This document shows positions 54,772-60,831 of a stretch of 64,000 nt of DNA, piece after piece. A program made the position numbers and the translations under genes. The stretch is from contig NZ_AP026070.1 of NCBI RefSeq assembly GCF_024363255.1, forward strand, positions 3,534,001 through 3,598,000, in the 5' to 3' direction. Source of the DNA: Shewanella sp. NFH-SH190041. Its GTDB lineage: Bacteria; Pseudomonadota; Gammaproteobacteria; Enterobacterales; Shewanellaceae. The notes under the pieces were generated by a model. It was given only the letters and a program-made list of their open reading frames with translations, did not search any database and was not told where the DNA came from. Position 1 is the first letter of the stretch; every line of letters starts with the position of its first letter.

Positions 54772-57700
54772 TTAAAACTGCATTCTGGCACCAAGGAACA
54801 TAAAGCGTCCCATACCGCCGCCATAGGCACTGTCAAAATTTCCCTTACCGCCAAGGATAAAGGGGCCGGTCTCATCAAACAGATTATTGATACCGCCATA
54901 AATGCGTACATCAGTCTCGTCAAAGTTCATATCATATGACACTGACAAATTATGGGTTGTCACTGATGGCAATTCACTGCCCCATAGTGATTCCGGATTG
55001 GCGACACAGCTAGCCTCACCGGCAGCACAACGCTCAGTATTGGCTGCCATGGCTTTTTCCCAACTATCATGGGTTGACTGACTACGACGTACAGGACCTT
55101 TGTAACGGCTACTCCAGCGTATCCGCCAATCATCCTTGTACCAAGTCAAAGACGCTGCCCCCTTATCCTTAAAAATATCGGTAGATAGCAGCCCAGCATA
55201 ACTCTCACTATATTGACCATCCGGGCCTGTCGCGGTGATGGTGTAATCAATCACATGGGTCCAGTCCAGTTTCAGCTTCAACCTACCCCACTGATTTAAG
55301 TCGTATTTATACAACATGGCAATGTCATACCCACTGGTGCGTAGCTCATCGGCATTAATTACCCGCTGCAAGACCTCCACCAGCTGTCCATCAGAGTCAC
55401 GTTTAATGTCCCGGCAAAACTCATTATCAGCCCCATAAGGCATTGAAGAGTTGTAACAAAAACCAATAATGTCTTCGTTACTATAAGAGCTCATCGCATC
55501 ATCTGTTGTAATGTCATAATAATCCAATGCTAGCTTCAACCCATCAATAAACTCCGGCGCCATAGATAGCCCAAGCGTAAAGGTTTTTGCTGATTCTTCT
55601 TTCAACTCCGCATTTCCGGCATTTGGTGAGTAACCATTGTTGTCGTCTTCAAATACACCATCAGCAGCAATGGTCGCCGCAATGCCAGGATCCTGACGAC
55701 AGTTACTGTGCCCCGCCCCCGTGGACGTTACCGTCACACCATCACAAAGATCATTGAAAGAGTCATAATCTCCTCGCGGTGGCGAAAGCAGTTCAGTAAT
55801 ACTTGGCGCCCGCTGCGCAGTCGCCCAGTTCGCCCGCAGCATATACCCCGATAGCGGTTCATAAATAAAACCAGCTTTATAACTGGTCACCAGATCCGTG
55901 TTAGACCAGCTGTAATCAGCTAAACGCAGTGACATATCCAATGACAGATTTTCCACTGCGGGCAAATCCCGCAGGAGCGGCACTGATGCTTCTGCGAAAA
56001 CCTCATAAACATCAACATCACCCTTAAAGGCAGGCACATAGTTAAAGGTCACCCCACCATTCGGCACATTCGTGGCAACACTTTGGCTATCCCGGCGATA
56101 TTCAAAACCAAACGCGGATGCAACAGGGCCGGCAGGCAGAGTAAACAAATCCCCCGTCATATAACCCAGCACATTTACCATAGAAATATCTGTGGTGATT
56201 GAAGGGTTGGCACGAATATAGTCGGCAGCCTCTGGCGTAATAGAACCCGCCCCAAATAGGTTTAACGGCACGCAGCCATTGGCTCTGGCAGTTTCATCCC
56301 GACATTGAATGGTGCCATCGGCCAGTTGCTCAGCATCAAGCGCTTCACGAACTCTGGCGACATACAGTTCATTATGACGCTGTTGCTCTTGACGGAACTT
56401 GCCATATCCGAGGGAAATATCCCACTGCCAGTCATCCCAGATATCCCCGCGCAAACCGGCCCAAGAGCGATATGTCGTCCGGGTATTTTCATTAATAATA
56501 TTGCCCACTTCAGCAAAATTACGATCCCATTTCACCCCTTTAGAGCTAGCTTTATTCCGAATTGCATCCGGCATGTAAGGATTATCTTTGGGAATTCGAC
56601 CAATACAGTCAGACCCAAACTCACCTGTGCTGGGGTTACGCACAATGATGGCATCACATTCATCTTCACTTTCTGGTGATTTAGTATTAACCGACTTATT
56701 GCGGCTAAACTGCAGCTGGAAATAAGCTTGAGGCCCGGCAGCAAATTCATAATCTGTCTTCACGGCCAGCGCTAGGGTTTCATCTGGCACTTTCAACATG
56801 GTGAATTGGTTGAAATTGATACCATATCGTTCTTCATGCCAATCCGTTCTCAGAGTTTGTCCGTCATACCAGAAACCTGAGTCAGGCTTAGTACTGCTTT
56901 TTTCATCAAAGACACCACCATATAGAGAATCACTTAAACTGCGCCAGTCAGCTTGAGTGATATCACGCATACACTGATAACCTGATTCCGTCAGCATGGT
57001 GTTACACATCTGCTTAGTGTCGTATTTCCAGCTGTCCTGCTGCTGTGCTCGTTTTCTGTCATGAAAATCCAAGCCATATTCTTTTTCAAAGGAGGCAGCC
57101 ATAAACAGATAACCGGCCCCCCCGGCATAACTGCCACCATAATCAGCATCAATACTAAACTCTTCGCCACCACCATCTAGCGCACCGCCACCCCGGGTAT
57201 TGATGCTAAAACCATGTTGATCTTTTTTAGTAATGATATTCACCACCCCTGCGACAGCATCAGAGCCGTACGCAGCAGATGCTCCTCCGGTAATAATTTC
57301 GACTTTATCGACAAAACTCGATGGTATTGTGCTGAGGCTGACATAGTTACCAGAATAACTATTGGAAACCACACGTCGACCATCGATCAGTGTCAAAGTA
57401 CGATTCACCCCGAGTTCTCGCAGATCTATGGTGGATAAGCCGGTATTTTGCACACTGGATTGGGAATTACTGTTGCTGGTACCTTCAGAAAGCTGTGGCA
57501 TTTCCTCGACTAAAATTGATGCCAAAGAGCCGATACCGGCATCCTCAATGGCATCCTTATCCAAAGTTGCCAACGGCGTGGTAACCGAAAAACTATCTCG
57601 GCGGATACGTGAACCGGTGACGGTAATTTTCTCAACGTTATGCTCTGCCACCTGCTTTGGCGTTTTGGCTGTGTTCTGTGAATGACTTTTATCCGTGACT

Positions 57701-57786
57701 TCAATGGGATCTGCCGCCATTGCCAGACAAGGTGCACTGCCGAAGATTGCCACCTGAACCAGCTTGGTCAGTTTTTTCTTATTCAT
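54772..57786 (-). CDS. TonB-dependent outer-membrane receptor
   Basis: A 1004-residue receptor. A signal peptide (about 1-24, cut after AMA) is followed by an N-terminal segment with the TonB box (EKITVTGSRI), the plug domain (about 75-190, TLIDGRRVV, VDKVEIITGGASAAYGSDAVAGVVNIIT) and a 22-strand barrel ending in a C-terminal Phe (FLGARMQF). Extended loops carry several cysteine pairs (about residues 260-275 and 400-415, and CNTML). The large size and the 'GSRI' plug class are typical of Shewanella and Caulobacter receptors for complex substrates such as peptides or glycans. It is divergent from the bufferin operon with a 392-base spacer. Metal or metallophore uptake is possible but not shown by sequence. 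Confidence 0.93.
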   Translation of the reverse strand: MNKKKLTKLVQVAIFGSAPCLAMAADPIEVTDKSHSQNTAKTPKQVAEHNVEKITVTGSRIRRDSFSVTTPLATLDKDAIEDAGIGSLASILVEEMPQLSEGTSNSNSQSSVQNTGLSTIDLRELGVNRTLTLIDGRRVVSNSYSGNYVSLSTIPSSFVDKVEIITGGASAAYGSDAVAGVVNIITKKDQHGFSINTRGGGALDGGGEEFSIDADYGGSYAGGAGYLFMAASFEKEYGLDFHDRKRAQQQDSWKYDTKQMCNTMLTESGYQCMRDITQADWRSLSDSLYGGVFDEKSSTKPDSGFWYDGQTLRTDWHEERYGINFNQFTMLKVPDETLALAVKTDYEFAAGPQAYFQLQFSRNKSVNTKSPESEDECDAIIVRNPSTGEFGSDCIGRIPKDNPYMPDAIRNKASSKGVKWDRNFAEVGNIINENTRTTYRSWAGLRGDIWDDWQWDISLGYGKFRQEQQRHNELYVARVREALDAEQLADGTIQCRDETARANGCVPLNLFGAGSITPEAADYIRANPSITTDISMVNVLGYMTGDLFTLPAGPVASAFGFEYRRDSQSVATNVPNGGVTFNYVPAFKGDVDVYEVFAEASVPLLRDLPAVENLSLDMSLRLADYSWSNTDLVTSYKAGFIYEPLSGYMLRANWATAQRAPSITELLSPPRGDYDSFNDLCDGVTVTSTGAGHSNCRQDPGIAATIAADGVFEDDNNGYSPNAGNAELKEESAKTFTLGLSMAPEFIDGLKLALDYYDITTDDAMSSYSNEDIIGFCYNSSMPYGADNEFCRDIKRDSDGQLVEVLQRVINADELRTSGYDIAMLYKYDLNQWGRLKLKLDWTHVIDYTITATGPDGQYSESYAGLLSTDIFKDKGAASLTWYKDDWRIRWSSRYKGPVRRSQSTHDSWEKAMAANTERCAAGEASCVANPESLWGSELPSVTTHNLSVSYDMNFDETDVRIYGGINNLFDETGPFILGGKGNFDSAYGGGMGRFMFLGARMQF

Positions 57787-58178
57787 TTTATTGCCCTTTT
57801 TCTGTCCACCTGAGGTCTATTACTGCCATTAACTGCAATATGGGTACACCGCCGCACGTCTGGCCAACCCGTTTCGAGTGATGCCATTCATTTGTATTTC
57901 GTCCACAAGGGTAGAAACAAGCCTGAACAGGTCTTTTTTTTGCCTTTTACAGCTCTATTTAAAATCTATTTCTAGTAAAAACAATCACTTAAAAATTAGA
58001 CTGCTGATAAAAACTTTTATGTAAGCCATTGAAAAAAATAGCAATAAGCGCTGAATCATCGACTCAATAGCCGCCATTACAGGCCGATTTGTTGGGTAGC
58101 ACAAATGTAGCAATACTGTTAAGTTGAACTAACCTGATACAGGTCGTTACCGACAACACTGAGTATGAGGAGTCACAA

Positions 58179-58634
58179 ATGAAGAAAACCCAAACAGCAC
58201 TGTCCGGTGCAGCACTGGCACTGGCCATGGCTGGTATGTCCGGCTGTCAGAGCACTCAGGATGCCCCTACAGCATCATCTGCCGGACGGGCGGATTTGGT
58301 GCACTGCTATGGTGTCAATGTCTGTAAAGGACACAATGACTGCAAAGGCGCAAACAATGCTTGTGGTGGCCACGGCAGCTGTAAAGGCACAGGTTTTGTT
58401 GCCATGCCATCCAAGGCCTGCGGTGATATTGGCGGAAAAGTTAAAGATGATTGGGTCGGGCAAATTTCTCAATCAGAATTAGTTCACTGTTACGGCATTA
58501 ATGTCTGCAAAGGCCATAACGACTGTAAGTCTGCCAACAATGCTTGTGCTGGCCATGGTAGTTGTAAAGGCCATGGTTTTGTCGCTGTGCCAGCCAAAGC
58601 TTGTAGTGATGCAGGCGGTAAAGTGGGATCCTAA
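58179..58634 (+). CDS. bufA: bufferin-type precursor peptide with two tandem cores (BufA2-like)
   Basis: A 151-residue precursor. Residues 1-22 form a lipoprotein signal with lipobox MSGC (Cys23). The mature part holds two nearly identical cores with a period of 61 residues. Each has six cysteines (43, 49, 55, 62, 68, 81 and 104, 110, 116, 123, 129, 142) in the order [14 protein letters not shown], ANNACxGHGSCKGxGFVA, PxKACxDxGGK. This pattern is that of the BufA2-type bufferins, metal-binding peptides whose cysteines are modified by an MNIO enzyme. The linker between cores (about 88-102) is charged. GAGGAG lies 7 bases before the ATG. A single core is normal for the family; the duplication and lipid anchor are unusual. 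Confidence 0.85.
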
Positions 58635-58700
58635 TTTAGCACGTATCAGGCCCGGCAAAATGACGGGCCTGCCATCGACTCACAACATTATGGAGCCCCT

Positions 58701-59633
58701 TTGCAGAGCACACTGACCCACCCTTTTCTCGGCTTTGGCCTTGGGCTTCGCACGCCACATTTTGAGCATATCTTGCAGCAACGACCAGCTATCGATTGGT
58801 TCGAAATTTTGTCAGAAAATTATATGGTTGCTGGCGGGAAACCCAGATATTACCTCGATGCAATCGCTGAGCAATACCCCTTAGTTATGCATGGCGTTTC
58901 CATGTCTATCGGCAGTACAGATCCGCTGGATATGGCTTATCTTCGCTCACTCAAACAACTGGTTAATACAGTCAATCCAGCTTGGATATCCGATCATATC
59001 TGCTGGACTGGTGTACATGGCGTTAATAGTCATGATCTATTGCCACTGCCTTACACCGAGGAAACCGTTGCCCATGTCAGCGATAGGATCCGTCAGGTAC
59101 AAGATTTCCTTGGGCGGCGCATCTTACTGGAAAATGTCTCCAGCTATCTCACCTACAAAGATTCGGTAATGACTGAGTGGGAATTTATCAATCAGGTTGC
59201 TGAGCACTCAGACAGTCTAATTCTGCTGGATATCAACAATATTTATGTCAGTGCCCGCAACCATGGTTTTCAGGCAAAGCACTTTATTGATCAGATTAAC
59301 CCTAAACGAGTACAGCAGTTCCACCTCGCCGGACACAGTGATTATGGCGACTATGTAATTGATACGCACGACCATGATGTCTGCGAATCTGTATGGCAAT
59401 TATATCGCTATGCACTGCAACGCTTTGGCGCGGTTAGCACCATGATTGAACGAGATGCCAATATCCCCGAATTTACGGCTCTGACAGCGGAACTGGATAT
59501 TGCTAGAGATATTGCCCAAGAGGTCATCGGCAACCATTATGCTCACACGCGACCAAGCGAGAACGACATAACGAATAGAATAGAAAGCAAAACGACAAAT
59601 CCATCAATACCACGTTCAGGGAAAGTATCATGA
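58701..59633 (+). CDS. bufB: MNIO-family (DUF692) peptide-modifying enzyme BufB
   Basis: A 310-residue cytosolic enzyme of the multinuclear non-haem iron oxidative group (DUF692, TIM-barrel). In bufferin pathways it oxidises cysteines of the precursor to heterocycles such as thiooxazole. The family blocks carrying the iron ligands are present: MHGVSMSIGSTDPLD, WISDHICWTG...HDLLPLPYTEE, ILLENVSSY, LLLDINNIYVSARNH, QFHLAGHSDYG...DTHDHDV, and the late MIERDANIPEF. It starts with TTG preceded by GGAGCCCC, 66 bases after bufA. The last 30 residues form a polar tail. It overlaps bufC by four bases. Confidence 0.95.
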   Translation: MQSTLTHPFLGFGLGLRTPHFEHILQQRPAIDWFEILSENYMVAGGKPRYYLDAIAEQYPLVMHGVSMSIGSTDPLDMAYLRSLKQLVNTVNPAWISDHICWTGVHGVNSHDLLPLPYTEETVAHVSDRIRQVQDFLGRRILLENVSSYLTYKDSVMTEWEFINQVAEHSDSLILLDINNIYVSARNHGFQAKHFIDQINPKRVQQFHLAGHSDYGDYVIDTHDHDVCESVWQLYRYALQRFGAVSTMIERDANIPEFTALTAELDIARDIAQEVIGNHYAHTRPSENDITNRIESKTTNPSIPRSGKVS

Positions 59634-60424
59634 GTAAGCTGGCACAAACCCAAGACATTATGATGGATTATTTGTTGACACAATCGCCGCAGCAACAACA
59701 GGCAGCAGAACAGTTGCTGCAACAGGGCGGCGCAATTGCTCCAGCGATACGACTACAAATCTACGCCAATGCTTATCGGATCCGGTTGCAGGAAACCATT
59801 GAGACAGATCATGAACAATTATGCCTTTACCTTGGTGATGAATTGTTTGCTCAAATGCTCGATGGCTACCTAAGTGCTTATCCATCTCGGCATCGCTCAT
59901 TACGACAGTTTTGTGATAATTTGCCACAATTTCTACGACAAGATGCTTTTTTTAGCCAATACCCATTACTTGCTGAATTGGCACAGTTTGAACGCCTGCT
60001 ACTCACAGCTTACGATGCCGCAGATGCACCTAGAGAAGCATTTACCACACTGCAACAACTCCCTGCCGCGCTGTGGCCAGCGACCAGCCTGAGATTACAC
60101 CCCAGTGTGCAATTATTTACGTGCCAAACCCCAGCAGTGGAGTGCTGGCAGGCGCTAAAACAACAACAATCGCCACCAAACCCTGACAGTATTTATCCAC
60201 GCTGCTGGCTTTTATGGCGGGGTAATAGCCGGGTAACCGAGTTTATCTCACTGCAACCTTACCAGCAGGCGTTGCTTGAAGGGGTACTAAATGGGCAAGA
60301 CTTTGCAGCCCTCTGTGAAAATATGCTGATATTTAGTGAGCCGCAACAAGCACCTGCATTGGTGCTGCAATCTTTTCAAGCGTGGTTTGATATGGGGCTT
60401 ATCCGTCAGGTGGTAAGCCCATAA
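59630..60424 (+). CDS. bufC: DUF2063 partner protein BufC
   Basis: A 264-residue helical cytosolic protein of the DUF2063 family, which partners MNIO enzymes and is thought to recognise the precursor peptide. The N-terminal helical DUF2063 region (about 1-100) shows LRLQIYANAYRIRLQETIETDHEQLCLYLGDELFAQML and GYLSAYPSRHRSLRQFCDNLPQFL-type blocks. The C-terminal part (about 165-260) is a second domain. The ATG overlaps the bufB stop (ATGA), so translation is coupled and the two proteins are probably made in equal amounts and form a complex. Confidence 0.93.
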   Translation: MSKLAQTQDIMMDYLLTQSPQQQQAAEQLLQQGGAIAPAIRLQIYANAYRIRLQETIETDHEQLCLYLGDELFAQMLDGYLSAYPSRHRSLRQFCDNLPQFLRQDAFFSQYPLLAELAQFERLLLTAYDAADAPREAFTTLQQLPAALWPATSLRLHPSVQLFTCQTPAVECWQALKQQQSPPNPDSIYPRCWLLWRGNSRVTEFISLQPYQQALLEGVLNGQDFAALCENMLIFSEPQQAPALVLQSFQAWFDMGLIRQVVSP

Positions 60425-60579
60425 GACTGGCTCATCCCTCACCGCAATGACACAAATCCCCCGACATCACTGAACCAAACAAAAACAAAGTTAACTGGCT
60501 ACTCTATTAAGCATCCCCTTGATGACGCGCATCCTGTTAGAATGCCCTTAAATTGAGACGTTATAAGAGGAACAGGATC

Positions 60580-60831
60580 ATGAAAACCTGTTGTTTCAGC
60601 CTGATCACCGATACACCACTGGTTGAGATGGAAGATTTTGAGCAAATCTGTGTACAGTTAGAAGAAGCTGAATGCGATGATGCCAGAATCCATTCTGTTA
60701 ATGACAAATTAGTACTGGATTTTGAACGCCAAGCTGAATCTATGGCGGCAGCAATTGTAGCTGTGCGCCAAGCTCTGGCCCAAACACCGGGGATCCAGAT
60801 TGTCGATACAGTGATGGTTAGCGAAGCATAA
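60580..60831 (+). CDS. small hypothetical protein downstream of bufC
   Basis: An 83-residue acidic protein (MKTCCFSLITDTPLVEMEDFEQICVQLEEAECDDARI...) with a vicinal Cys pair at 4-5 and two more cysteines at 24 and 32. The layout is mixed alpha/beta, with a helix at about 53-70 (QAESMAAAIVAVRQALA). I do not recognise the family. The ATG at 60580 follows AGAGG; an upstream in-frame ATG at 60553 has no ribosome-binding site. It lies 155 bases after bufC, so co-transcription is uncertain. Position and cysteines make a link to the buf system possible but unproven. Confidence 0.6.
   Translation: MKTCCFSLITDTPLVEMEDFEQICVQLEEAECDDARIHSVNDKLVLDFERQAESMAAAIVAVRQALAQTPGIQIVDTVMVSEA

Follow-up and report, generated by a model that had tools for sequence, protein, structure and literature searches.

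Positions 58179-60424 of the window, the 64,000-nucleotide stretch of Shewanella DNA analysed here, carry on the forward strand a bufABC operon, in the order bufA, bufB, bufC. We read it as a BufA2-type bufferin operon making a membrane-tethered pair of copper-binding domains, and give this explanation as a whole a probability of roughly four in five. The sequence supports a bufferin operon whose precursor has two cores and, probably, a lipid anchor; what we propose for its modification, lipidation, location and metal is drawn from the family. Two cores are the normal state in this clade and a rarity across the class as a whole. A twelve-cysteine duplicated Buf2 and predicted lipoproteins among Buf2 precursors have both been published (PMC12452194), so neither feature is new; going by the accessible part of that paper, which gives the two features separately, what is added here is their joint frequency and history.

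Identity of the bufABC operon

The first gene, bufA (58179..58634; this and all further features are on the forward strand), encodes a 151-aa BufA2/Buf2 precursor with 13 cysteines, Cys23 and two sets of six, and was matched in two stretches by the NCBIfam model NF050166 (Cu_RiPP_BufA2) at 141.2 bits against a cut-off of 60. After a gap of 66 nt, in which GGAG at 58692..58695 reads as the likely ribosome-binding site, bufB (58701..59633) opens with a TTG start and encodes a 310-aa MNIO (DUF692) bufferin maturase, with 388.8 bits to NF050167 (MNIO_BufB; cut-off 310) and 376.2 bits to PF05114. The third gene, bufC (59630..60424), overlaps bufB by ATGA and encodes a 264-aa partner with DUF2063 (PF09836, 61.9 bits) and, from its predicted fold, an RRE-like part. 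The MNIO and DUF2063 genes and their ATGA overlap, as described from the letters alone in an earlier sequence-only reading, were borne out by the ORF coordinates, by Pfam for both proteins and by NCBIfam for BufB. The locus thus combines a BufA2 model match above cut-off, six cysteines per domain and the bufABC gene order. It shares with Buf2 (BufA2, NF050166) the six-Cys core, a putative Sec-type signal, this gene order and the MNIO plus DUF2063 partner, and differs from it in nothing of kind.

In BufB, 18 His, Asp or Glu positions are kept in at least 97% of 135 MNIO rows, and 11 in all 135. As BufC scored far below the cut-off of the NCBI HvfC model (31.4 of 142 bits), its identification depends on the Pfam match, the fold and the place of the gene in the operon. 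The predicted fold (pLDDT 95.6) matched chain A of 8hi7 (TglHI; E 6.9e-7) and gonococcal NGO1945 (3dee; E 7.3e-7), and the RRE part is suggested by weak fold matches to lasso-peptide RREs with leader (6jx3, E 0.31, prob 0.99; 5v1u, E 1.3). A search of the BufC sequence against solved structures returned nothing under E 0.16.

That the operon is instead of methanobactin or oxazolin type is highly improbable. Those systems belong to the same MNIO superfamily, and BufB does score 280.9 bits with the HvfB model and 74.6 bits with the MbnB model, but both values lie below the respective cut-offs (360 and 325), whereas BufB exceeds its own. BufA had no HvfA match and, on reading the sequence, has no EGKCG motif, and a separate HvfABC-type operon is present in the same genome. 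Oxazolin/HvfABC and fontiphorin systems ('captophorins') likewise pair an MNIO with a partner and modify many cysteines on one precursor (PMC13097082), but oxazolin precursors carry EGKCG-type repeats where the window's BufA has six-Cys domains. Methanobactin MbnABC shares the MNIO enzyme and the copper theme, but has no Sec signal, carries an oxazolone-thioamide and serves copper uptake (PMC12452194).

The second MNIO operon of the genome (locus L004, 783-3056; contig C1 near 1.62 Mb) has a 148-aa precursor with EGKCG repeats, which scored 106.3 bits with the repeat model (cut-off 19.5) and 67.3 bits with full-length HvfA (below 95). With HvfB at 429.2 bits (cut-off 360) and HvfC at 257.1 bits (cut-off 142) in the same operon, the bacterium has both oxazolin-type and bufferin-type systems.

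For the bufferin operon we propose, by analogy with the family, that BufC, through its DUF2063 and RRE parts, would hold the BufA leader/signal region in the cytoplasm while BufB, a multi-iron oxidase, would modify part of the cysteines in each core, most likely forming 5-thiooxazoles. Export of this modified precursor through Sec would follow, and Lgt, LspA and Lnt would act at Cys23 to give a triacylated lipoprotein, which its +2 Gln would send to the outer membrane by the E. coli +2 rule, under which Gln at this position predicts such passage. The product would be a pair of copper-binding domains on a flexible membrane tether, facing the periplasm or possibly lying at the surface, and would buffer the cell against excess copper. 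Buf1 carries thiooxazoles, and the modification of Buf2 has so far been reported only through preliminary mass-loss and UV data (PMC12452194). The portion of the bufferin/MNIO literature accessible to us yielded no experiment on a two-core lipobox bufferin.

A metal or role other than copper buffering, such as oxidative stress or another soft metal (gold, silver or mercury, for example), is unlikely. Bufferin operons are also called gold-induced (gig) and MerC fusions exist (PMC12452194), and we recognised no copper gene by eye among the neighbouring ORFs, one of which, of 92 aa, had no NCBIfam match; against this, a role in copper stress has been reported for Buf1 and, preliminarily, for C. 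vibrioides Buf2 (PMC12452194).

Two cores in one precursor

From HMM domains and alignments, core 1 of BufA runs from Leu40 to Asp91 (58296..58451; Cys 43, 49, 55, 62, 68 and 81) and core 2 from Leu101 to the end (58479..58631; Cys 104, 110, 116, 123, 129 and 142). The description of two six-Cys cores repeating every 61 residues held up on three counts: a single direct-repeat family in bufA comprises two copies of 149 nt, 183 nt apart and 75% identical; the BufA2 model matched the frame twice, at 76.1 and 74.5 bits; and the first cysteines of the cores, C43 and C104, lie 61 residues apart. No further BufA2 match at E <= 0.001 was found across the 4.37-Mb genome. The structure predicted for BufA is of low confidence (pLDDT 68.9); compared with solved folds it gave no match of weight (one at E 8.4), and a search of solved structures with the BufA sequence gave nothing under E 0.16. 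Twelve conserved cysteines in duplicated 6-Cys domains are published for 10% of Buf2 ('Buf_6/12Cys'), the other 90% having six, together with an AlphaFold model of a duplicated Buf2; iterative processing has been raised there for very long EGKCG precursors (PMC12452194).

In an alignment of the window with the best 80 of 189 relatives, the six cysteines are present in 81 of 81 rows in core 1 and equally in 81 of 81 in core 2, and their spacing is 5-5-6-5-12 in 158 of the 160 cores caught by the pattern. Among 22 Shewanellaceae rows, dN/dS was 0.067 for core 1 (69 pairs) and 0.078 for core 2 (62 pairs), calculated from pairs with 0<dS<1.5 whose mean dS, about 1.05, is near saturation. By these ratios, both cores are under similar, strong purifying selection. 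This bears on the reading in which one core is the real substrate and the other a structural or decoy repeat. Since only the two central cysteines of the four in Buf1 are modified (PMC12452194), not every cysteine need be a target; against such a division of labour stand the matching dN/dS values, the invariance of the six cysteines in both cores and a mean core identity that is no lower within one protein (0.78) than between orthologous cores (0.77 and 0.74), and we consider it improbable.

The two cores of the window are 85% identical in protein but 45% identical at comparable synonymous sites, which argues that selection, not recent copying, keeps them alike. Such likeness within a protein, with synonymous sites scrambled, would be expected if one enzyme pair must accept both cores. 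Recent gene conversion between the window's cores was considered and found unsupported, as their synonymous identity of 0.45 compares with 0.48-0.50 between loci. Over 79 loci, synonymous identity between cores averages 0.58, a mild excess, and gene conversion may have acted in some relatives.

Frequency and history of the second core and the lipobox

The N-terminus of BufA (signal region, 58179..58247) has a basic start, a hydrophobic stretch and a lipobox, Met-Ser-Gly-Cys23, with predicted SPII cleavage before Cys23 and Gln at +2. The lipobox previously pointed out at Cys23 was confirmed by a PS51257-like rule that asks for a Cys at 15-35, a basic n-region and an uncharged h-region; the leader fails a stricter G-LPP-like lipoprotein pattern, with Gln5 read as the breaking residue. 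The precursor is probably lipid-anchored. SPII signals occur in a subset of bufferins, and mass spectrometry has shown lipidation of two MNIO peptides outside this family, DybA and NedA, which are likewise MNIO-modified and lipobox-bearing but belong to other precursor families, chryseobasin-like and oxazolin-like (PMC12636315).

Relatives were collected by a scan of named genome contigs in which the best 80 of 189 were kept, a set biased by a two-core query and by a search pattern that covered the lipobox. Two cores are present in all 80 of these best 80 of 189, with a BufB match downstream in 79/80 and a BufC match in 77/80. At L035 the contig ends; at L029 the BufB match is only partial, covering residues 9-77, and BufC is missing although 2.7 kb follow. 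Downstream of the two-core lipobox precursor L037, 4 kb of sequence gave a match to neither BufB nor BufC; a precursor with BufB and BufC matches is present on a second contig of that isolate (L023).

By the rule applied here, a lipobox is present in 53 and absent from 27 of these two-core relatives (best 80 of 189), so the design can do without the anchor. With the window added, the PS51257-like rule is satisfied by 49 of 81 leaders and the G-LPP-like pattern by 39; 27 satisfy neither. The +2 residue is never Asp in the 53 lipobox-bearing relatives among the best 80 of 189, which fits outer-membrane sorting by the E. coli rule. Were Cys23 left unlipidated, with signal peptidase I (or no peptidase) cutting, the two-core peptide would be free in the periplasm. 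The 27 two-core relatives lacking a lipobox (best 80 of 189) speak for such a soluble bufferin, 20 of them with an AxA-type site at residues 23-36 (L009, L036 and L040, for example), as does the absence of the lipobox from 19 of 26 distinct precursors of the genus; the window's leader, however, meets the PS51257-like rule and lacks an AxA site in that interval, and we regard the soluble form as unlikely here. The AxA comparison is itself a weak test, since 23 of 54 lipobox leaders hold an AxA too, and mutual exclusion of lipobox and AxA was dropped as uninformative about the anchor.

The lipobox-bearing two-core precursor was then placed among wider samples. Of 369 genomes drawn from the class, 97 had a BufA2 match, and precursors were taken from the stretches listed above cut-off other than the window's own (30 + 53). 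Among the matches listed there were 90 distinct precursors: 72 were one-core without a lipobox, 15 one-core with a lipobox, and three had more than one core match, two of these with a lipobox. Only one of the three, L183, which is the gene of the named locus L031, is truly two-domain, the other two being built of internal repeats. At least five of the 90 (L099, L182, L184, L189 and L193) have a start that is difficult to locate; these were counted as without a lipobox. Among the matches listed, a lipobox thus occurs in 15 of 87 one-core class precursors (17%), which agrees with the about 16% of Buf2 published as predicted lipoproteins (PMC12452194).

Within the genus, the gene was found in 30 of 117 genomes, that of the window included, and all 26 distinct precursors are two-core, seven with a lipobox and 19 without. 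An order draw gave a BufA2 match in 46 of 295 genomes. Matches above 170 bits (window included, and partly from the same genomes as the genus draw) were two-core in 23 of 23 and carried a lipobox in 10 of 23; the seven weaker matches fetched were all one-core, three with only four cysteines, and 19 further listed matches scored below 25 bits.

The statement in the sequence-only reading that most precursors have one core is upheld by the class draw, in which, among the matches listed, 87 of 90 precursors are single-core and 72 of 90 are one-core without a lipobox. That reading had also called for a search for two-core bufA homologues and would have yielded if two-core lipobox precursors proved the normal form in the family. 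The search, now run, divides the answer: in the clade two cores are the rule and a lipobox accompanies them often (23/23 and 10/23), whereas in the family multi-core precursors with a lipobox are 2 of 90 among the matches listed. The novelty implied for a two-core, lipid-anchored precursor does not stand, as both features are published (PMC12452194) and common in relatives. The suggested oddity becomes a known, widespread form in which anchoring and core number appear to vary separately. An association between the two features looks strong by count (lipobox in 53 of 80 two-core relatives, the best 80 of 189, versus 15 of 87 single-core precursors among the matches listed) but is not claimed, because the two sets were sampled in different ways and the tree shows only three changes of core number, so that shared ancestry could account for it.

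A quick BufB tree of 134 rows required three changes of core number against 17 of the lipobox. A more careful tree covered 75 two-core rows, namely the window, L144 and 73 of the 80 named loci (best 80 of 189), seven having been left out for a BufB match that was short, broken, missing or identical. It gave nine lipobox changes (9-10 in bootstraps), of which the well-supported branches alone force only three; its bootstrap support was not yet fully stable, and long branches lead to nine of the rows. The nearest row to the window is Shewanella corallii, with the lipobox present; the precursor leader of a further same-genus locus, L116, is identical to that of the named S. corallii locus, L006. 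Given three core-number changes against about nine of the lipobox, and a lipobox present in S. corallii and absent from 19 of 26 genus precursors, the duplication appears to be old and stable, in contrast to a labile anchor. We tentatively suggest, at somewhat less than even odds, that duplication and anchor are separate variables and that a stable two-domain bufferin has repeatedly switched between outer-membrane-tethered and periplasm-free forms. If so, pairs of related Shewanella species offer a natural comparison for learning how tethering serves a copper buffer, for example by displaying it at the surface, loading it into vesicles or retaining copper close to cuproenzymes of the outer membrane. 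Close relatives with and without the lipobox, with the same two cores and the same BufBC, would provide a test of a lipid tail on a metal-buffering RiPP.

Other precursor forms were also seen. In genome G356, a lipobox Buf2 precursor (L187, 1991-2456) has 13 cysteines through in-core repeats of CKG-type units, not domain duplication, together with a Gly-His-rich stretch and two other precursor genes beside it. A 10-Cys precursor with internal repeats in genome G345 (L196) adjoins a single-core lipobox precursor gene and shows a further, intermediate way of adding cysteines. Long frames at L182, L184, L189 and L193, and one at L186, carry a single six-Cys core at the C-terminal end and are possibly the published MerC-Buf2 fusions.

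Possible regulatory features around bufA

Upstream of bufA, a sigma-70 scan found no site, and a comparison of 25 Shewanellaceae and Motilimonas loci by shared words gave no convincing common motif; in 57600-60700 no Rfam family reached its gathering score. A dyad, ATTTGT-N8-ACAAAT, at 58087-58106 and a short palindrome seen by eye, ACCTG-ATA-CAGGT, at 58132-58144 are possible operator sites; visual inspection of the 200 nt that precede the gene in the nearest relative (L006) showed neither.

Folding and comparison with relatives place a stem-loop with an 8-bp stem in the bufA-bufB gap (58647..58671), a candidate mRNA stabiliser or attenuator. Hairpins between precursor and enzyme genes are familiar in other RiPPs, and we therefore treat this one as a detail, not a discovery. 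A word search of the accessible part of PMC12452194 for hairpin, terminator, attenuator and stem-loop found none of these, and a thin literature search showed, among the papers listed, none joining bufferins or MNIO with a hairpin or attenuator. The window's gap alone gives a weak signal (z -1.48, 13 of 200 shuffles as good; 1 of 12 shuffles within about 1 kcal/mol), and the argument is comparative, against shuffled gaps of the same loci. A hairpin of -12 kcal/mol or better is present in 76 of 80 two-core gaps (79 distinct loci, as L183 repeats L031), where dinucleotide shuffles predict 20.2. A further 57 fetched precursor genes, nearly all one-core, lie within reach of a bufB, and 53 of them have such a hairpin, against 29.6 expected. 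The stem-loop is kept by position and not by sequence, which differs between species. It probably keeps precursor mRNA above enzyme mRNA, and may thereby set the substrate/enzyme ratio.
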